38,034 nucleotides of DNA, from the NCBI GenBank assembly GCA_900319635.1, contig ONPF01000007.1:1-38034 (forward strand), read 5' to 3'. Position 1 is the stretch's first letter. Each line of letters opens with the position of its first letter. Shown piece after piece: positions 3,194-16,832 of this stretch. Source of the stretch: an uncultured Eubacteriales bacterium. GTDB taxonomy: Bacteria; Bacillota; Clostridia; Oscillospirales; Oscillospiraceae. The translations under genes and the position numbers were made by a program. The notes beneath the pieces are model-generated. The model ran no database searches and was not told the origin of the DNA. It saw only the letters and a program-made list of their open reading frames with translations.

Positions 3194-4306
3194 TTATTTA
3201 TAGTACATGAACAGGTCGCACTTGATCATACCGTTATACAGCTTCCGCTTTTTGTCCGCCTCCCGGCCGAAGCAGCGCTCAAACTCTGTGTGGGAGGAGA
3301 GCAGATAGAGCTGCCAGTTTGCAAGGCTCCGGTACGCCTGGCCGAAGGCGCGGTAGAGGTCTTCGGCCTCCTCCTTCTCGCCGATCCGCTCCCCGTAGGG
3401 GGGATTGGTGACGATCACGCCCCGCTCGGTCTTCCGGTCAAAGCTGCGGGCGTCGGCCACCTCGAAGCGGACGATATCGGAAACCCCGGCGCGCTCGGCG
3501 TTGGCCCTTGCGATGGCGATGGCCTTGGGGTCGATGTCCGTGCCAAGGATCCTGTAGTCGCCGTGAAACTCCCGCACGGCGGCGGCCTCCCGCTCCCGCT
3601 GCCAGATCCCCGGATCCAGCGTGCGCCAGTCCATGGCGGCAAAGTGCCGGCTTCGGCCGGGCGCGGCGTTTTTGGCGATCATCGCCGCCTCGATGGGGAT
3701 GGTGCCGCTGCCGCAGAAGGGGTCGCAGAAATCGTCCCGCCCCCGGTAACGGGAGAGATTCACCATGGCGGCGGCCAGAGTCTCCCGCAGGGGCGCGGCG
3801 TTGTGCGCCGGGCGGTAGCCCCGCTTGTGCAGCCCCTCTCCGCTGGTGTCCAGGCACAGGGAGACCTGATCCTTCATGATGGAAAAGCGGATCTGCACCG
3901 TCTCGCCGGTCTCGGCGAACCAGCCCAGATGATAGCGCCCTTTCAGCCGCTCCACCACGGCCTTTTTGATGATCTTCTGGCAGTCGGACACGGAGAAGAG
4001 CTTGGAGTTCAGACTGTGCCCGGTGACGGGGAAGGCGGCGTCCTTGGGGATCCAGCGCTCCCAGGGCAGGGCCTTCGTCCGCTCAAAGAGCTGGTCAAAG
4101 GTCAGAGCCTCGAAGCGGCCCAGCTCCAGCAGCACCCGCTCGCCGGTGCGCAGGCGCAAATTCGCCCGGGCCAGCATCCCCTCGTCGCCGGTGAAGTAGA
4201 CCCGGCCGTTTTCCGCCGAGACGGAGGGTGCGTCCATGCGCCGCAGCTCATCGGCTGCCAGCCCCTCCAGGCCGAACAGACAGGGCACGCAAAATTGAAG
4301 ATCCAT
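3194..4306 (-). CDS. rlmL: Class I SAM-dependent rRNA (guanine-N2)-methyltransferase, RlmL/YpsC-like
   Basis: Probable 23S rRNA m2G methyltransferase. The 370-residue protein has an N-terminal ferredoxin-like/THUMP region (residues about 1-150), then a Rossmann methyltransferase fold with the SAM-binding motif DPFCGSG at 195-201, an acidic GTDID at 255-259 and the catalytic NPPYGER at 301-307. The frame is open further upstream, but the ATG at 4306 is chosen because GAGGT lies eight bases before it and the upstream 54 codons overlap the promoter. It corresponds to the single-domain YpsC-type enzyme of Firmicutes, not the fused RlmKL of E. coli. It is the first gene of an operon with the lipid kinase. 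Confidence 0.92.
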   Translation of the reverse strand: MDLQFCVPCLFGLEGLAADELRRMDAPSVSAENGRVYFTGDEGMLARANLRLRTGERVLLELGRFEALTFDQLFERTKALPWERWIPKDAAFPVTGHSLNSKLFSVSDCQKIIKKAVVERLKGRYHLGWFAETGETVQIRFSIMKDQVSLCLDTSGEGLHKRGYRPAHNAAPLRETLAAAMVNLSRYRGRDDFCDPFCGSGTIPIEAAMIAKNAAPGRSRHFAAMDWRTLDPGIWQREREAAAVREFHGDYRILGTDIDPKAIAIARANAERAGVSDIVRFEVADARSFDRKTERGVIVTNPPYGERIGEKEEAEDLYRAFGQAYRSLANWQLYLLSSHTEFERCFGREADKKRKLYNGMIKCDLFMYYK

Positions 4307-9430: not shown

Positions 9431-9460
9431 AAAACGAAAAAAAGCGTGAAGGGAGCGCGT

Positions 9461-10123
9461 ATGAAAAAGAGACGGGGAATACTCTTGAGCATGCTGCTGA
9501 TCCTGCTCCTCTGCGTTCTGCTGCTTGTCTTGCCATATGGGCTGTTTTATTTCGCCATGATTCGGGCAACGGCGCTGAACTATACCGATGATTTGACCGA
9601 GGGAAGCTTCAGCTTCTTGACCCGGGAGGAGCGGCCGGGAAGTCTTTTTTACCGAGGAGAGGGGAAGAAAGCCGCCCTTGTCGTCATCACGTTCGACCCG
9701 GACAGCGGCGTATCAGAGTTCACGATCCCAGACGCCTGTGGGGACTACCCTGTGGTGGAGCTGGGCGGCTATGTTGGAAAGGGCGGCCCCTGCCCCTTTG
9801 AGATCGAAGTGAAGGGGCTTCCCTCCACGCTGGGGGTTTTTCCGTCTGGCGGGACCTTCGGGAAAGTCAACGGGAAAAACGTGGATGTCTTCTATCATGA
9901 TGTGACGCTGAACCTCGGCGCAAATATCCGGGAAATCTACGCCTGTCAGGCTGCCGATTACGTGGAAACGGGCGGCGACAGGGGAGAGGTACACGTCGTT
10001 CGGGTCTATTTCAACTGCGACCCGGCAAATCGAAACTTCTATTCCGAAAACGGAAGACTCTATGACAAAAACGGAAAGCTCGTCAAGGGCTTCTTCTATT
10101 GGGACGATAGCTTCCTTTCCTGA
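9461..10123 (+). CDS. Secreted or membrane-anchored protein of unknown function
   Basis: A 220-residue protein with a basic N-terminus (MKKRRG) and one strong hydrophobic segment (residues about 7-34), so it is either a signal peptide or a membrane anchor. The rest looks extracytoplasmic and beta-rich. Phrases such as EFTIPDACGDYPVVELGGY resemble the strand pattern of BspA-type leucine-rich repeats, but not enough repeats are present to call that family. The ATG at 9461 is chosen for the GGGAG upstream; an in-frame GTG at 9446 lacks one. It is followed by a terminator shared with the convergent alr gene. Confidence 0.75.
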   Translation: MKKRRGILLSMLLILLLCVLLLVLPYGLFYFAMIRATALNYTDDLTEGSFSFLTREERPGSLFYRGEGKKAALVVITFDPDSGVSEFTIPDACGDYPVVELGGYVGKGGPCPFEIEVKGLPSTLGVFPSGGTFGKVNGKNVDVFYHDVTLNLGANIREIYACQAADYVETGGDRGEVHVVRVYFNCDPANRNFYSENGRLYDKNGKLVKGFFYWDDSFLS

Positions 10124-11359: not shown

Positions 11360-11899
11360 TTAACTCCAATTTTCGATTTCACAGGCGACGGTCACAACGC
11401 CGTCGCATTGCAGTTCCGCCCGGCAGGGGATCCCCCCGTCGAACCAGACCCGCGCCAGGCAGTGGTCGCTGACGGAAAGCTCCACCGCGTCACAGCCGCC
11501 CTCCTCCCAGAAGGCGTCCGGGTGGCCGGTTCGCAGAGCCTCCACCAGCAGCGGCAGGGCGGACATGGGCGTGAGCCCGTAGGCGTCCAGATCCCCGGTA
11601 TCCAGGATCAGCCAGTCATACTCCAGGGCGGTGGCGCCCTTTTCCACCTTGGCCGTGATGCCGGAGATCTCTCCCGGCGAGAGCACCGTGACCCGCTGCA
11701 CGTCCCCCTCCAGCGCGTAGCGCAGGGAGAAGGAAGCCGTGCGATCCGGGTAGGAGGCGGTGAGCGCGGCGGTGAAGCTGAGAGCGTCCTTTTGGGCAAG
11801 TTCCCGGGAAAAAGTCTCAAAGCGCTCCCGGGCGGCGTTGCCGCAGCCGGTGAGCAGCAGACAGAACAGCAGGGGGATCAGGACAAGCGTTTTTTTCAT
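11360..11899 (-). CDS. Lipoprotein of unknown function
   Basis: A 179-residue protein with a type II signal peptide: MKKT, a hydrophobic core and the lipobox LLTGC, so it is anchored to the outer face of the membrane at Cys19. The mature part resembles small lipoproteins with a beta-rich fold but matches no family I can name. The start ATG at 11899 has TGGAGGTACC upstream. It is the promoter-proximal gene of a two-gene operon with alr; the pairing with D-alanine supply hints at a cell-wall role, which is inference only. Confidence 0.85.
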   Translation of the reverse strand: MKKTLVLIPLLFCLLLTGCGNAARERFETFSRELAQKDALSFTAALTASYPDRTASFSLRYALEGDVQRVTVLSPGEISGITAKVEKGATALEYDWLILDTGDLDAYGLTPMSALPLLVEALRTGHPDAFWEEGGCDAVELSVSDHCLARVWFDGGIPCRAELQCDGVVTVACEIENWS

Positions 11900-11959
11900 G
11901 GGTACCTCCAAAGTGTCGTGGTATCCAAGCTTATGCGCCCGCCCCCCGGTTTGATGAAC

Positions 11960-11988
11960 ATTATAATCCCTGCCCGGCACTCCGTCAA
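11960..11988 (-). promoter_or_regulatory. Promoter of the lipoprotein-alr operon
   Basis: On the minus strand, TTGACG (11983-11988), a 17-base spacer and a perfect TATAAT (11960-11965), 60 bases upstream of the start codon. Confidence 0.88.
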
Positions 11989-12035
11989 TTCTTTCTTTCC
12001 GCCCTTGATTTTTGGCAAAAAGGACAAAAACACTC

Positions 12036-12064
12036 TTGAAAACTTGTGCGAACTGTGATACTCT
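12036..12064 (+). promoter_or_regulatory. Promoter of the pheST T-box leader
   Basis: TTGAAA at 12036-12041 followed by a weak -10 (GATACT at 12057-12062 or TACTCT at 12059-12064), just upstream of the T-box stem I at 12079. Confidence 0.55.
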
Positions 12065-12078
12065 ATGCCTGCTGTGAT

Positions 12079-12294
12079 CGGGAAAATAGTGCCTGGACGG
12101 ACGGACAGAGAAAGAGGGTCGGCGGCTGGAAGCCCTCTGCGTCAGGGGCGCTTGGTTCGCCCGGGAGCTCCGGCCAATCCCCGGCGGGCGGCGCCCGTTA
12201 CCGCGTCGAGAGTGCGATTCCTGGAATCGAATGTGGGTGGTACCACGGAAGCGATGCTTTCGTCCCAGTGCGGGACGGAGGCTTATTTTTTTTG
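12079..12294 (+). promoter_or_regulatory. T-box riboswitch, phenylalanine specifier
   Basis: Stem I can be drawn by hand: CGGG (12079-12082) pairs with CCCG (12160-12163). GTGCC (12089-12093) pairs with GGCGC (12147-12151), and a distal AGAGGG/CCCTCT helix follows. Between the two lower helices the 3' side is TTGGTTCG, putting a TTC (Phe) codon at 12156-12158 in the specifier position. The conserved T-box GGGTGGTACCACGG is at 12234-12247; its TGGT bulge can pair with the ACCA end of tRNA(Phe). The terminator follows at 12248-12293. Uncharged tRNA(Phe) should favour antitermination and pheST expression. Confidence 0.93.
12248..12293 (+). terminator. T-box terminator
   Basis: CGTCCC (12261-12266) pairs with GGGACG (12272-12277), and AAGC/GCTT can extend the stem. 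A run of eight T follows at 12286-12293. It competes with the antiterminator built from the T-box sequence. Confidence 0.9.
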
Positions 12295-12320
12295 TAGGGG
12301 CCGGCGCCCTCGACGGCCCG
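12291..12320 (+). repeat. 30-bp GTAGGGGCC repeat, copy 2
   Basis: Same as 9402-9430 with two substitutions, which shift the single mismatch to the opposite side of the hairpin. It starts inside the T-run of the T-box terminator. Confidence 0.65.
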
Positions 12321-12334
12321 CGTGAAAACGGAAT

Positions 12335-12870
12335 ACCCCTCAGTCCGGCTTTGCGGACAGAGCCGCCTTGCGGTGCCCGAAAAACGCTGCGGGCTTACGC
12401 TATTCCTTGCGTTTTTCGACCGCTGCGGAAATTCCGTCTTTGCTTTGTCTGCCACCGGCAGCGCAAAGCCGCAATTCCCCTTGCACAGGGGCGCACACAA
12501 GGAAAGAGAACCCCTCCGCCCCAGTGTGAGCACTGGGGCACCTCCCCTTAGGCAGGGGAGGCAAAGATGAAAGAAACCCCTCAGTCCGGCTTTGCCGGAC
12601 AGCGCCGCCTTGCGGTGCCCGAAAAACGCTGCGGGCTTACGCTATTCCTTGCGTTTTTCGACCGCTGCGGAAATTCCGCCTTTGCTTTATCTGCCACCGG
12701 CAGCGCAAAGCCGCAATTCCCCTTAGACAGGGGAGCACACAAGGAAAGAGAACCCCTCCGCCCCAGTGTGAGCACTGGGGCACCTCCCCTTAGGCAGGGG
12801 AGGCAAAGATGAAAGGAGAACCCCTCAGTCCGGCTTTGCCGGACAGCTCCCCTTAGGCAGGGGAGCCTAT
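12335..12870 (+). repeat. Tandem structured repeat: two ~242-bp copies plus a short third copy
   Basis: Copy 1 spans 12335-12575 and copy 2 spans 12576-12819; they differ at only about seven positions. Copy 3 (12820-about 12870) retains only the first hairpin and the CTCCCC/GGGGAG hairpin. Each long copy contains hairpin A (GTCCGGC/GCCGGAC, imperfect in copy 1), hairpin B (GCGGT-gcc-CGAAAAACGC pairing with GCGTTTTTCG-ACCGC; 12370-12423 and 12612-12665), and hairpin C (CTTTGC..CTGCC/GGCAG.GCAAAG). An inverted two-hairpin unit CCGCCCCAGTG/CACTGGGGC..CTCCCC/GGGGAG comes last. These copies fill the 590 bases between the T-box terminator and pheS; no credible gene is present. Confidence 0.85.
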
Positions 12871-12887
12871 AAGGAAAGGAGATTTAT

Positions 12888-13913
12888 ATGAAAGAACTGA
12901 TGCAGGCGCTTCGGGACAAGGCCATGCAGGCCATCTTCGAGGCGGACGACGTGGAAAAGCTGGAGGAGCTGCGCATCAAGTACCTGGGCAAAAAGGGCGA
13001 GATGACCGCGATCCTGCGGCAGATGGGCAAGCTCTCCCCGGAGGAGCGCCCGGTGATGGGTCAGCTGGCCAACCAGGTCCGCGGCGAGATCGAGGGTCTG
13101 CTGGAGGAGCGGCGGAAGATCGTGACCGAGGCCATGCTGGAGAAGAAGCTGCAGCGGGAGGCCATCGACGTGACCCTGCCCGGCCGGAAGCCCCAGCTGG
13201 GGCACAAGCACCCCATGTACAACGTCCTGGATCAGATCAAGGACATCTTCATCGGCATGGGCTTTGAGATCGTGGACGGCCCCGAGGTGGAGCGGGAGGA
13301 GTATAACTTCACCAAGCTGAACATCGACGAGGGGCACCCCTCCCGGGAGTGGACGGACACCTTCTATTTCACCCCGGACAGCAAGATCCTCCTGCGCACC
13401 CAGACCTCTCCCATGCAGATCCACGCCATGGAGACCCGGCCGCTTCCTATCCGCATCATCGCCCCCGGGCGGGTCTACCGCAAGGACGAGGTGGACGCCA
13501 CCCACAGCCCCATGTTCCACCAGATCGAGGGCATGGTCATCGACAAGGGTGTGACCATGGCGGATCTGAAGGCCACGCTGAACCTGGTGGTGGAGAAGAT
13601 TTACGGCAAGGGCACCGTCACCCGCTTCCGCCCCCATCACTTCCCCTTCACCGAGCCCAGCTGCGAGCTGGACATCCAGTGCCACAAGTGCGGCGGCAAA
13701 GGCTGCTCCACCTGCAAGGGCGAGGGCTGGATCGAGGTGCTTGGCGCCGGCATGGTGCACCCCAAGGTGCTCTCCGGCTGCGGCATCGACCCGGACGTGT
13801 ACTCCGGCTGGGCCTTCGGCATGGGCCTGGAGCGGCTCGCCATGGGCGAATACAAGATCACGGATCTGCGTCTCATTTTTGAGAACGACGTAAGATTTCT
13901 TGAACAGTTCTGA
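12888..13913 (+). CDS. pheS: Phenylalanine--tRNA ligase alpha subunit
   Basis: Catalytic subunit of the (alpha-beta)2 enzyme that charges tRNA(Phe). The 341-residue protein has the N-terminal coiled-coil tRNA arm (about 1-90), class II motif 2 (GRVYRKDEVDATHSPMFHQ, 194-212), FTEPSCE (254-260) and motif 3 GMGLERLAMG (about 315-324). Cys265, Cys268, Cys273 and Cys276 form a compact CxxC-x4-CxxC knuckle that could bind zinc and is seen in part of the bacterial PheS family. The ATG at 12888 is preceded by GGAAAGGAG. It is controlled by the Phe T-box, although about 595 bases of repeats separate the two. Confidence 0.98.
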   Translation: MKELMQALRDKAMQAIFEADDVEKLEELRIKYLGKKGEMTAILRQMGKLSPEERPVMGQLANQVRGEIEGLLEERRKIVTEAMLEKKLQREAIDVTLPGRKPQLGHKHPMYNVLDQIKDIFIGMGFEIVDGPEVEREEYNFTKLNIDEGHPSREWTDTFYFTPDSKILLRTQTSPMQIHAMETRPLPIRIIAPGRVYRKDEVDATHSPMFHQIEGMVIDKGVTMADLKATLNLVVEKIYGKGTVTRFRPHHFPFTEPSCELDIQCHKCGGKGCSTCKGEGWIEVLGAGMVHPKVLSGCGIDPDVYSGWAFGMGLERLAMGEYKITDLRLIFENDVRFLEQF

Positions 13914-13917
13914 CTTG

Positions 13918-13959
13918 CTTCCCCCTTGGGGGGAAGTGCCCCGCAGGGGCGATAGGGGC
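13918..13959 (+). repeat. Two-hairpin repeat downstream of pheS
   Basis: CTTCCCCC-ttg-GGGGGAAG, GTG, GCCCC-gca-GGGGC and GATAGGGG. It has the same order of parts as the inverted unit at 8693-8731, where the second stem is GGCC/GGCC. Confidence 0.65.
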
Positions 13960-13975
13960 TCCCATTTGACAGCCC

Positions 13976-14128
13976 CTTCAGTCGCTTCGCGACAGCTTCC
14001 GCCTTGCGGTGCCCGAAAAATGCTGCGGGCTTTCACAGTTCCTTGCATTTTTCGACCGCTGCGGAAATTCCGGACTCGCTTTTTCTGCCACAGGCAGCGC
14101 GAGTCCGCAATTCCCCCTCAGGGGAGCC
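13976..14128 (+). repeat. Long structured repeat between pheS and pheT
   Basis: Same order of hairpins as the tandem copies upstream of pheS, with compensatory changes: hairpin A is GTCGC-ttc-GCGAC (13981-13993). Hairpin B is GCGGT-gcc-CGAAAAATGC with GCATTTTTCG-ACCGC (14006-14059). Hairpin C is GGACTCGC..CTGCC/GGCAG.GCGAGTCC (14072-14106). It ends in CCCCTcAGGGG before the pheT ribosome-binding site. Confidence 0.85.
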
Positions 14129-14147
14129 AAAAAGGAGGATTATTGAT

Positions 14148-16832
14148 ATGAAAATGCCCAGAAAATGGCTCAATGAGTTTGTAAATCTGCCTCTGGAGGA
14201 GGTGGGCGACAAGGCCTTTGCCGAGGCGATGAGCGTCTCCGGCTCCAAGGTGGAGGTCACCGAGGATCTGACCCAGACCATCCACAACGTCAAGGTGGGG
14301 CGCATCCTGTCCCTGGAGAAGCACCCCAATTCGGATCATATGCTGGTGTGCCAGATCGATGTGGGGGAGGAAGCTCCCGTCCAGATCTGCACCGGCGCCT
14401 GGAACGTGCATGTGGGCGATCTGGTGCCCGCGGCGCTGCACAAGTCCCTGCTGCCGAACGGGACGAAGATCGAGAAGGGCAAGCTCCGGGGCGTGGAGTC
14501 CTGCGGTATGCTCTGCTCCCTCAAGGAGCTGGCGGCGGACGTGCACGACTTCCCCTACGGCCAGATCAAGGCCGCGGCCCTGCTGAACAACTATCACCCC
14601 ATCGACCCGCTGAAGCCCTCCATCTCTCCTCTCATCAAGAGCGGCGACCGGATCTTCGGCAAGGTGGTGGCGGCGGAGGTCACCAAGGTGGAAAACGCCG
14701 GCGTGAACCGGTTCAAATGCAGCCTCGCCACTGGAAACGAGACCATCACCGACTGCCAGAACATCCACGCGGGCGACCTGGTGGCCTACAACACCGAGAA
14801 GGACGCCATCTGCACCCTCCAGGACCTCCACGCCGAGCAGCGGGAGTTTCCCAACTGCATCGAGGACGGCATCCTGATCCTCCACGAGGACTGCAAGCCC
14901 GGCGACGATGTGGGCGTGCTCCTGGGTCGGGACGACCATGTGGTGGAGTATGAGATCACCCCCAACCGGCCGGACTGCCTGTGCATGATCGGCCTGGCGC
15001 GGGAAGTGGCCGTCACCTTCGGCAAGGAGCTGAAGCTCCACGAGCCGGTAGTGCAGGCCAAGGCGGGCGGCAATATCGCGAACATGGCCAGGATCGTCAT
15101 CGAGGATCCGGCGCTCTGCCCCCGCTACACCGCCCGGATGGTGAAAAACGTGAAGATCGCCCCGTCTCCGGCCTGGATGCGGGAGCGGCTGCGCAACGCG
15201 GGCATGCGCCCCATCAACAACCTGGTGGACATCACAAACTACGTCATGCTGGAGTACGGTCAGCCCATGCACGCCTTTGACTTCAGCTGCGTCAAGGACG
15301 GGGAGATCCATGTGCGCTGCGCCCGGGAAGGGGAGAGCATCCGCACCCTGGACGGCAACGACCGCCCCCTCACGCCCAATATGCTCTGCATCTGCGACAC
15401 GGAAAAGCCCGTGGCCGTGGCCGGCGTCATGGGCGGCGAGAACAGCGAGATCGTGGGCGACACCGCCATGGTGCTCTTTGAGAGCGCCTGCTTCAACGGC
15501 CCCTCCGTCCGCCGCACTGCCACCGCGCTGGGCATGCGCACCGACGCCTCCTCCCGCTTTGAGAAGGGGCTGGACGCCGAGGGCACCTGGAAGGCCGTGC
15601 AGCGCGCCTGCGAGCTGGTGGAGCTCCTGGGCTGCGGCGAGGTGGTGGAGGGCGTGATCGACGTCTTCCCCGGCAAGAAGCCCCAGACTACGGTCAAGCT
15701 GGAGCCGGAAAAGATCAACGGCCTTCTCGGCACGGACATCGACGAGCAGACCATGCGCAGGATCCTCAGCGACCTGGGCTTCGGCTTTGACGGCGACACC
15801 ATCCTGGTGCCCTCCTGGCGCGGCGACGTGGAGCACTACTCCGACATTGCCGAGGAGGTGGCCCGCTTCTACGGCTATAACGAGATCCCCACCGCCTTCT
15901 CCGGCGGCATCAGCACCGCCGGCGGCTACACCGAGCTCCAGCAGACGGAGCGGCGCATCGGCGAGGTCTGCCGCAGCATGGGGCTGGACGAGATCATTAC
16001 CTACTCCTTCATCAGCCCCGGCTACTATGACAAGATCCGCATGCCCAAGGACGATCCCCGGCGGGACAGCCTGAAGATCCTGAACCCCCTGGGCGAGGAT
16101 ACCTCCATCATGCGCACCACCATCCTCCCCTCCATGCTGGAGATCCTGACCCGCAACTACAACTACCGCAACAAGTCCGCCGCCCTCTACGAGATCGGCC
16201 GCATCTACCACAAGCGCCCCGACGGTCTGGCCGACGAGCCGAAGATCGTCTCCCTGGGCGCCTACGGCCCAGAGATGGACTTCTTCGTGTTGAAGGGCTG
16301 GGTGGAGAACCTGCTGGCGGATCTGGGCGCTGCAAAGCCTCACTTTGTCCAGGAGCGCCTCAACCCCTCCTATCATCCCGGCCGCTGCGCCCGCGTCTTC
16401 GTGGGCGAGACCGAGATCGGCGTACTGGGGCAGATCCATCCCCAGGTAGCCTCAAACTACGGCGTGGACGCGGAGCTCTACTGCGCCGAGCTGCGCTTTG
16501 ACGCGCTCCTTTCCGTCAAGGGCGGCATCCCCGTCTTCAAGCCTCTGCCCCGCTTCCCCGCGGTGACCCGGGACATCGCCGTGGTCTGCGGCGCGGAGGT
16601 GCCCGTGGGCGACATGACCGAGGCCATCCTCGCAGGCGGCGGCCAGTATCTCAAGGGCTGCACCCTCTTTGACGTGTACACCGGCCACCACATCGCCGAG
16701 GGCATGAAGTCCGTGGCCTTCTCCCTCACTATGCGGGCGGAGGATCAGACGCTGACCGACGAGCACGCCGAGGAGACGGTGAAAAAGGTGCTGCAGCTCC
16801 TGAAGGAGAAATTCAACGCCGTCATGCGGTAA
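14148..16832 (+). CDS. pheT: Phenylalanine--tRNA ligase beta subunit, long form
   Basis: Editing and tRNA-binding subunit of PheRS. In order: an N-terminal segment, an OB-fold tRNA-binding domain (residues about 45-125), B3/B4 editing domain, B5 domain, the catalytic-like domain and the C-terminal FDX-ACB anticodon domain (about 800-894, FPAVTRDIAVV near its start). At 894 residues it is about 90 longer than most bacterial PheT. The extra length is residues about 141-235, between the OB fold and EDGILIL, and resembles a second OB-like unit (VGRILSL..GDLVPAA against FGKVVAA..GDLVAYN). The frame is open upstream into the repeat, but the ATG at 14148 is chosen for AAAGGAGG ten bases before it. 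It is cotranscribed with pheS. Confidence 0.97.
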   Translation: MKMPRKWLNEFVNLPLEEVGDKAFAEAMSVSGSKVEVTEDLTQTIHNVKVGRILSLEKHPNSDHMLVCQIDVGEEAPVQICTGAWNVHVGDLVPAALHKSLLPNGTKIEKGKLRGVESCGMLCSLKELAADVHDFPYGQIKAAALLNNYHPIDPLKPSISPLIKSGDRIFGKVVAAEVTKVENAGVNRFKCSLATGNETITDCQNIHAGDLVAYNTEKDAICTLQDLHAEQREFPNCIEDGILILHEDCKPGDDVGVLLGRDDHVVEYEITPNRPDCLCMIGLAREVAVTFGKELKLHEPVVQAKAGGNIANMARIVIEDPALCPRYTARMVKNVKIAPSPAWMRERLRNAGMRPINNLVDITNYVMLEYGQPMHAFDFSCVKDGEIHVRCAREGESIRTLDGNDRPLTPNMLCICDTEKPVAVAGVMGGENSEIVGDTAMVLFESACFNGPSVRRTATALGMRTDASSRFEKGLDAEGTWKAVQRACELVELLGCGEVVEGVIDVFPGKKPQTTVKLEPEKINGLLGTDIDEQTMRRILSDLGFGFDGDTILVPSWRGDVEHYSDIAEEVARFYGYNEIPTAFSGGISTAGGYTELQQTERRIGEVCRSMGLDEIITYSFISPGYYDKIRMPKDDPRRDSLKILNPLGEDTSIMRTTILPSMLEILTRNYNYRNKSAALYEIGRIYHKRPDGLADEPKIVSLGAYGPEMDFFVLKGWVENLLADLGAAKPHFVQERLNPSYHPGRCARVFVGETEIGVLGQIHPQVASNYGVDAELYCAELRFDALLSVKGGIPVFKPLPRFPAVTRDIAVVCGAEVPVGDMTEAILAGGGQYLKGCTLFDVYTGHHIAEGMKSVAFSLTMRAEDQTLTDEHAEETVKKVLQLLKEKFNAVMR

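Follow-up and report, generated by a model that had tools for sequence, protein, structure and literature searches.

Integron attC sites keep their fold while their letters vary, and the bcr1 repeat shows compensatory changes. Here we analyze a repeat family from the leaders of pheS and pheT, the genes of phenylalanyl-tRNA synthetase, in a stretch of 38,034 nt (the window) of an uncultured Eubacteriales bacterium (contig ONPF01000007.1 of assembly GCA_900319635.1, the source genome). We read it, with a probability of roughly 0.7, as a modular family of small, non-coding and non-autonomous mobile hairpin DNA. The closest described systems are the following. Repetitive extragenic palindromes (REPs) are palindromes of 20-40 bp; GTAG REPs are linked to REP-associated tyrosine transposases (RAYTs), while CGTC repeats are linked to no transposase (PMC3733652). 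TnpA-REP needs the REP structure in vitro (PMC8266576). REPINs are non-autonomous, extragenic and hairpin-forming, with conserved ends and a spacer hairpin that carries compensatory changes (PMC3116915). The bcr1-bcr3 repeats of B. cereus resemble miniature inverted-repeat transposable elements (MITEs) and often lie in untranslated regions or operon gaps (PMC3446304). Finally, stem-loop families from 40 bacterial genomes have a common predicted fold and are mostly intergenic (PMC2267715).

The repeated element at our locus is a two-hairpin core of 118-120 nt, mostly 118 nt, with fixed internal loops. Hairpin B (about 68 nt) has an outer stem TCCGC..GCGGA, an inner stem GCGGT..ACCGC and then CGAAAAANNN..NNNTTTTTCG; its fixed frame, GCGGT-GCC-CG..CG-A-CCGC, carries a hypervariable tip. 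The sequences CCGCCTTGCGG and CCGCTGCGG frame hairpin B. Hairpin C (about 47 nt) is without a comparable frame; it consists of hypervariable 14-nt arms, a 5-nt linker and a cap, CYGCC..GGCRG. The core is nested in short host units of about 60 nt each, which are of two types. S1 reads CCCCTCAGTC-hairpin-GACAGC, CTCCCC..GGGGAGCC, TATAAGGAAAGGAG, and S2 reads CCGTC or CGCCCC-hairpin-CACC, CTCCCC..GGGGAGGC. Within S1 the core sits between the two hairpins, and hairpin A, which the original prediction had counted with B and C, therefore belongs to the host unit; its stem is present, although imperfect in the first copy (GTCCGGCTTTGCGGAC). The same prediction gave the two copies before pheS a length of about 242 bases. 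These copies and a divergent one before pheT exist, but 242 nt is their spacing and not the length of an element: one period is made of an S1 unit of about 60 nt with its nested core plus a second unit of about 60 nt.

Like REPs and REPINs, the core is dispersed, extragenic, palindromic and non-coding, with conserved ends and a length-fixed variable hairpin with compensatory changes (PMC3116915). There are 26 matches in the source genome, and by a rough open reading frame (ORF) rule only 10 of 110 copies lie inside ORFs. Unlike a REPIN, the core comprises two different hairpins, is nested in other hairpin units and has neither a GTAG tag (the alignment of 70 cores holds no conserved tetranucleotide of this kind next to the palindrome) nor a linked RAYT. 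Hence the element resembles REP, REPIN and bcr repeats in behaviour but lacks two marks of a REP, the tag and the RAYT. It shares with the bcr1-type repeats of the Bacillus cereus group an intergenic, dispersed and MITE-like character (PMC3446304); it is set apart from them, by description rather than by sequence, by the hypervariability of its arms and its range across genera and families. Like the CGTC-tagged palindromic repeats it is a family without a dedicated transposase, but REPs there measure 20-40 bp (PMC3733652); the strings Clostridi-, Firmicutes, Faecalibacterium, Oscillibacter and Ruminococc- do not occur in the text of that paper. A common predicted fold is a property it has together with the stem-loop families (PMC2267715). 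A literature search, which included sequence strings, found no description of the core repeat.

Covariation in the stems of the core

In an alignment of 70 core copies, examined with a structure derived from the same sequences, 94.9% of 2940 base-pair cells were paired, compared with 82.0% after shuffling. Changes on both sides of a pair occurred in 339 cells versus 96.8 in the shuffled alignments and affected 21 of the 42 pairs. The observed values of five covariation measures were reached in 0 of 500 shuffles. The covariation score was 0.335, against 0.044-0.073 for slid structures, and pairing fell to 37-49% when the 3' partners were slid. Individual pairs illustrate the pattern: pair 25/51 is C-G in 36 copies, T-A in 19, A-T in 13 and a wobble in 2; pair 26/50 is G-C in 39, C-G in 13, T-A in 10, A-T in 7 and a wobble in 1; and pair 33/44 is G.T in 53, G-C in 14 and A-T in 3. 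Most of the copies were found with an exact pattern plus a regular expression that fixed much of lower hairpin B, so the invariance of helix 2 and lower helix 3 proves nothing. The search left the tip of hairpin B and the whole of hairpin C free. The arms of the tip are complementary at 98.6% within copies and at 44.6% between copies; for hairpin C (13 pairs, 74/112 omitted) the values are 92.1% and 61.7%. De novo folding with RNAalifold recovered the same two hairpins minus the outermost stem, with 18 of 37 pairs showing both-sided changes. The exceptions are pairs 74/112, 77/109, 5/66 and 2/69, which are unpaired in 27, 20, 19 and 32 of the 70 copies respectively.

Taken as single sequences, all three repeat stretches of the window fold better than 200 of 200 shuffles (z -3.05, -3.40 and -5.96). 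The hairpin-B and hairpin-C arms quoted in the original prediction match the sequence exactly, and its main idea, that paired stem changes reflect a constraint on the fold, agrees with the strong excess of both-sided substitutions. Furthermore, the pheT copy is a true relative of the pheS copies, 87% identical over 118 nt. With paired substitutions in excess and the pheT copy related, the idea stands. It seems that shape, rather than the letters of the stems, is what is copied or selected.

Six groups of copies share their flanks across genomes, including the pheS/pheT locus in the case of L284 (L numbers denote loci and G numbers genomes). In these groups differences affect 13 of 504 stem positions, compared with 18 of 216 loop positions (Fisher p 0.001); with the pattern-fixed positions 6-24 removed the counts are 13 of 426 and 17 of 180 (p 0.002). 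Both-sided changes at the same site were found in one group, at pairs 27/49 and 82/104 between L121 and L125/L219. Pair 25/51 in this group is T-A, T.G or C-G, the T.G intermediate being that of L125; two pairs, 73/113 and 78/108, are broken as well. The host-unit hairpin A has also changed on both sides, from GTCGC/GCGAC to GGCGC/GCGCC, among the pheT leaders of three species.

Two further observations concern hairpin B. Core positions 29/48 (numbered on window 12361-12480) form a coupled non-Watson-Crick pair in the internal loop, T-C in 44 and G-T in 24 of the 70 copies. At L137, L175, L191 and L209 a different hairpin (CCTTGCCGCA..GGGCCTGCTTCGC..GCGCGGCTGCGG) replaces hairpin B 5' of hairpin C.

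Copy number, dispersal and insertion sites

In BLAST searches of the source genome a 271-nt query from the first copy had 59 matches at E<=0.001, the pheT copy had 34 at E<=0.01 and the short unit had 40. A covariance model, R1, was built from the 70 core copies, and it is R1 that gave the 26 source-genome matches, at E<=1e-5. In a survey of 60 genomes, with 60 candidates scored per genome, R1 matched 28 of 37 genomes of the same genus (0-30 matches per genome) and 9 of 23 from other families of the order, 37 of 60 in total; many of the matches outside the source genome are weak or partial. One same-genus genome that is 97% complete, G009, had no R1 match. In a wider sample of the order at E<=1e-10, 36 of 295 genomes (source included) and 21 of 149 genera matched; only 12 candidates per genome were scored here, so these counts are lower bounds. 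Eleven of the more distant matches were inspected. What they retain, with small variations, is TTGCGGTGCCCG..CGACCGCTGCG, a hairpin-B tip that pairs and a hairpin C with two arms. The search with a covariance model that had been proposed with the original prediction thus found what was expected of it, namely copies dispersed across genomes and pairs that covary.

An exact 19-base pattern was present in at least 111 stretches of named genomes. We applied R1 to 100 pattern loci, which comprised 98 Clostridia-type records, one record titled Spirochaetaceae and a viral-contig locus, L219. It matched 94 of them with 105 matches in total; at E<=1e-6 there was no match in L127, L144, L160, L178, L186 and L212, the Spirochaetaceae-titled locus being among those without a match. 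The records with copies are labelled Oscillospiraceae, Ruminococcaceae, Clostridia, Clostridiales or Eubacteriales, and many come from rumen or gut samples. Pattern matches outside Clostridia (12 loci, in Streptomyces, Amycolatopsis and others) were discarded, as none fits R1 at E<0.05. Carriage by phages or plasmids was likewise set aside: a 177-nt query from the first copy had no BLAST match (E<=1e-5) in 50,697 phage and 72,556 plasmid records. Among viral contigs one stretch with the core pattern was found.

Copies within a genome can be nearly identical in unrelated surroundings. The cores of L093/L094 (identity 0.983), L166/L192 (0.992) and L179/L161 are 98-100% identical, while their flanks, compared ungapped, are unrelated; a separate comparison found no long flank match in these pairs. 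Copies of the same genome also cluster in a tree of the cores, with 42 label changes versus 52-62 in 200 shuffles, although this is a weak tree (FastTree on a short alignment). Among 110 copies, not deduplicated and with genes called by a home-made ORF rule, 24 lie on the same strand and 19 antisense between codirectional genes, 16 between divergent and 12 between convergent genes; apart from those inside ORFs, the remaining 29 lie at edges. This placement is close to the background of 180 codirectional, 69 divergent and 56 convergent gaps. The core shows no orientation bias to genes, and with its orientation random a role as terminator or leader finds no support.

The hosts were assigned for 93 copies, after 12 copies with short flanks and 5 duplicates had been dropped: 18 lie in S1, 25 in S2, 7 beside tRNA-fMet fragments and 43 elsewhere, a last class that includes some S1-like flanks missed by the motif rule. 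Read by eye, one core interrupts the D-loop of a tRNA-Phe(GAA) gene within a tRNA cluster (L207 933-1052; L342 about 9435-9551), others lie in the anticodon-loop region of tRNA-fMet fragments, and a further tRNA-fMet fragment holds one in its T-loop region. This hints at hairpin loops as insertion targets. The interrupted gene is the only tRNA-Phe found in the assembly, but we do not claim that the core is an intron: the cluster in L207 holds second-copy tRNAs and no tRNA-Asn was found in the assembly, so missing contigs are the likelier explanation.

Rearranged, snap-back tRNA-fMet fragments flank the core on one or both sides at L109, L130, L133, L142, L188 and L199, and also at L211, L357, L361, L364 and L365. 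An intact tRNA-Met is nearby in 7 of 9 such loci that were scanned; the arrangement is tandem in L130 and L211, and L365 has two cores. In the source genome a core appears, by eye, to interrupt a serine-resolvase gene (L095 5099-5672).

The original prediction had noted the repeat in the pheS and pheT leaders; across genomes the core is not a feature of these leaders, and its presence there is specific to certain lineages. A search for pheS in 61 genomes matched 54. In the best 30 of these loci the core is present in the pheS-pheT gap of three, those of the source genome, G022 and G037, and absent from 27; before pheS it occurs in the source genome only. In the 27 loci without a core the gap is 12-22 nt in 20 cases, and the distance from T-box to ATG is 58-113 nt in 22. 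Copies do precede both pheS and pheT in the window, as would be required of a leader that regulates phenylalanyl-tRNA synthetase genes specifically, but with so few orthologous loci occupied and a family so widely dispersed over unrelated places we consider this explanation extremely improbable.

Probable mobile DNA and its alternatives

The original prediction had left open whether the repeat is a mobile hairpin element or a structured RNA. Its dispersal, the lack of orientation bias, the patchy distribution and the near-identical copies with unrelated flanks favour the former, and the evidence as a whole is better explained by hairpin DNA that is mobile but non-autonomous than by a leader RNA. 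In such a scheme the core would spread as a unit within a genome and nest in S1, S2, the loops of tRNA genes or fragments, and genes. Movement would take place on folded single-stranded DNA, the substrate of a trans-acting enzyme that would recognise the fold together with a small number of fixed bases. If so, the letters of the stems would be free to drift as long as the arms stay complementary, and pairing would be kept because folding is needed for copying.

Strong covariation, and in particular the both-sided changes at one orthologous site (L121 versus L125/L219), would also be expected of a structured RNA, whose fold is kept for a functional transcript that acts either in trans or, as part of an untranslated region, in cis. 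The fixed length and fixed internal loops, the coupled pair 29/48 and the RNA-like series G.T, G-C, A-T of pair 33/44 on the strand drawn also agree with an RNA. Apart from 33/44, however, wobbles on that strand are few: six pairs of hairpin B hold 4 G.T in 420 cells, and the 13 pairs of hairpin C hold 9 G.T versus 29 A.C cells (9 versus 23 after cluster collapse). Such an excess of A.C would point to the opposite strand, but it is weak, and we did not adopt wobble polarity as a strand signal. Together with the indifference to gene orientation, the empty G009 genome and the fact that Rfam has no match at gathering score anywhere in the window, this makes an RNA unlikely. The arms could also stay complementary through template switching or gene conversion, with neither selection nor transposition. 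Hairpins have been replaced at orthologous sites, and snap-back tRNA-fMet fragments lie beside several copies, as such copying would predict. On the other hand, pair 74/112 is a C.C mismatch in 25 of 70 copies while its neighbours covary, which argues that whole arms are not routinely corrected, and at orthologous sites changes are roughly threefold more frequent in loops than in stems; a pure copying artefact is thus quite improbable. A true REPIN, moved by a Y1 transposase (RAYT) of the same genome, would account for the conserved ends and the compensatory changes of a spacer hairpin, as in known REPINs (PMC3116915), and in the core a variable hairpin of fixed length does lie between two CCGC..GCGG palindromes.

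We searched 60 genomes, source included, for such a transposase with PF01797, and 31 had a match. The source genome has two Y1_Tnp ORFs, in L095 and L107, and its best-scoring core is about 1.1 kb from the former. However, the L095 ORF has GTAG-type REPs on both sides (3515-4201) of the same kind as that in the window (12293-12321), the L107 ORF has a GTAG-like palindrome upstream, and no core lies within 350 nt of either. In G034 a distance of 1.6 kb, with another ORF in between, separates two cores from a canonical Y1 ORF. Y1 also occurs in 5 of the 9 same-genus genomes that lack the core. With GTAG-type repeats rather than cores adjoining the source ORFs, with a single core near the Y1 loci surveyed (below) and with no GTAG tag at the core ends, we downgraded mobilisation of the core by a RAYT, and the REPIN explanation has a low probability. 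L147, a contig of 3.3 kb that has a core at either end, was considered as an autonomous parent, but reading its ORFs by eye revealed no transposase; no wider search for a parent was made.

Several results weigh against mobile DNA itself. No core-linked transposase was found at the loci searched: in 30 Y1 loci, one per genome with about 1.5 kb on each side, a core was present only in that of the source genome, and of the 10 same-genus genomes with at least 10 core matches, four (G014, G028, G036 and G037, which are 80-95% complete) had no Y1 match. In the wider sample the 20 listed genomes that represent other genera of the source family had no R1 match, which is odd for an element that spreads freely. 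Neither a clean empty site nor a target duplication could be established; the insertions in the tRNA-Phe D-loop, a tRNA-fMet fragment and the resolvase-like gene have ends that are ambiguous by a few nt. In addition, none of the hairpins A, B and C is the same in L070 and L139, two loci with a common downstream flank. L097 and L156 agree in the letters of the hairpin-B stem but are distinguished by hairpin C and by an insertion of 50 nt. Such replacement suggests gene conversion or recombination besides transposition; compensation and replacement both occur at orthologous sites.

If the family is mobile, its more than 100 copies, with hairpin-C arms and hairpin-B tip mostly rewritten and pairing kept, amount to a natural mutagenesis of a mobile hairpin. 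Should a mobiliser be found, fold-based recognition of single-stranded DNA (or RNA) would become directly testable.

Organization of the pheS and pheT leaders

The features around pheS and pheT are listed in Table 1. About 590 nt of hairpin repeats separate the T-box terminator from pheS, in the order S1 with core, S2, S1 with core, S2, S1 without core, and the two cores are direct repeats. The 234 nt between pheS and pheT contain one S1 with its core.

Table 1. Positions of repeat units and genes in the window
Feature	Positions	Strand	Basis
T-box leader, 5' of the repeats and uninterrupted by them	12065..12270	+	Rfam RF00230 match, below gathering score
GTAG-type REP TGTAGGGGCCGGCGCCCTCGACGGCCCG, distinct from the core	12293..12321	+	sequence
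S1 host unit 1 with nested core	12336..12509	+	sequence, repeats
Two-hairpin core copy 1, hairpin B then C	12361..12480	+	R1, 131.3 bits
S2 unit, hairpin GCCCCAGTGTGAGCACTGGGGC, then CTCCCC..GGGGAGGC	12511..12574	+	sequence, repeats
S1 host unit 2 with nested core	12577..12751	+	sequence, repeats
Two-hairpin core copy 2	12603..12722	+	R1, 131.3 bits
Second S2 unit	12753..12816	+	sequence, repeats
S1 unit 3, without core	12821..12881	+	sequence; placement of S1 units elsewhere
pheS	12888..13913	+	NCBIfam TIGR00468, 325.8 bits
S1 host unit with nested core, in the pheS-pheT gap	13973..14138	+	sequence, pheS/pheT locus comparison
Two-hairpin core copy 3, pheT leader	13997..14116	+	R1, 135.7 bits
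pheT	14148..16832	+	NCBIfam TIGR00472, 668.1 bits (first 791 of 894 codons scanned); frame open to 16832

The S1 units differ from the core in their relation to genes. Among the loci collected, an S1 unit had a start codon downstream on the same strand, 5-45 nt from its 3' end and belonging to an ORF of 90 aa or more, in 12 of 29 cases in the source genome and in 13 of 27 in others. The mirror test at the other end of S1 gave 0 of 29 and 1 of 27, that is 1/56 versus 25/56; a further 15 of the 56 are followed by another unit. For S2 the numbers are 9 of 49 versus 3 of 49 in the mirror. The association with gene starts belongs to the S1 host units alone and not to the core. The 3' tail of S1, AAGGAAAGGAG, bears a Shine-Dalgarno sequence and lies just 5' of start codons, for example in S1 unit 3. 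AAAGGAG at the 3' end of that unit is likely the Shine-Dalgarno of pheS, and AAGGAGG at the 3' end of the S1 in the pheS-pheT gap likely that of pheT.

The tie of S1 to ribosome-binding sites may reflect an insertion preference, selection, or a site that is brought along by S1, and the units are possibly mobile ribosome-binding sites. Because the units follow the T-box terminator, precede the ribosome-binding sites and, in the case of S1, supply a Shine-Dalgarno, the genes could stay expressed. The S1 units offer the testable idea that a repeat can survive by supplying ribosome-binding sites. A bolder version, which we regard as doubtful, is a mobile leader system with two layers: S1 cassettes, as mobile ribosome-binding sites, would settle at the Shine-Dalgarno of genes and replace it, and the core, as a second element recognised almost wholly by shape, would be moved by an undescribed kind of enzyme into hairpin-rich targets such as tRNA loops, with stems that drift yet stay paired across the order.

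The T-box leader scores 70.9 bits (E 8.5e-15) with RF00230, below the gathering score of 93, and automatic annotation may thus miss a T-box before pheS; by its position the specifier would be UUC. Rfam applied to 11880-14200 at E<=1 gave this T-box and three weak matches far under their gathering scores. The species closest to the source by pheS have differing numbers and kinds of short units before this gene. A GTAG-type REP is present at the same place before pheS also in G037, G022 and G068.

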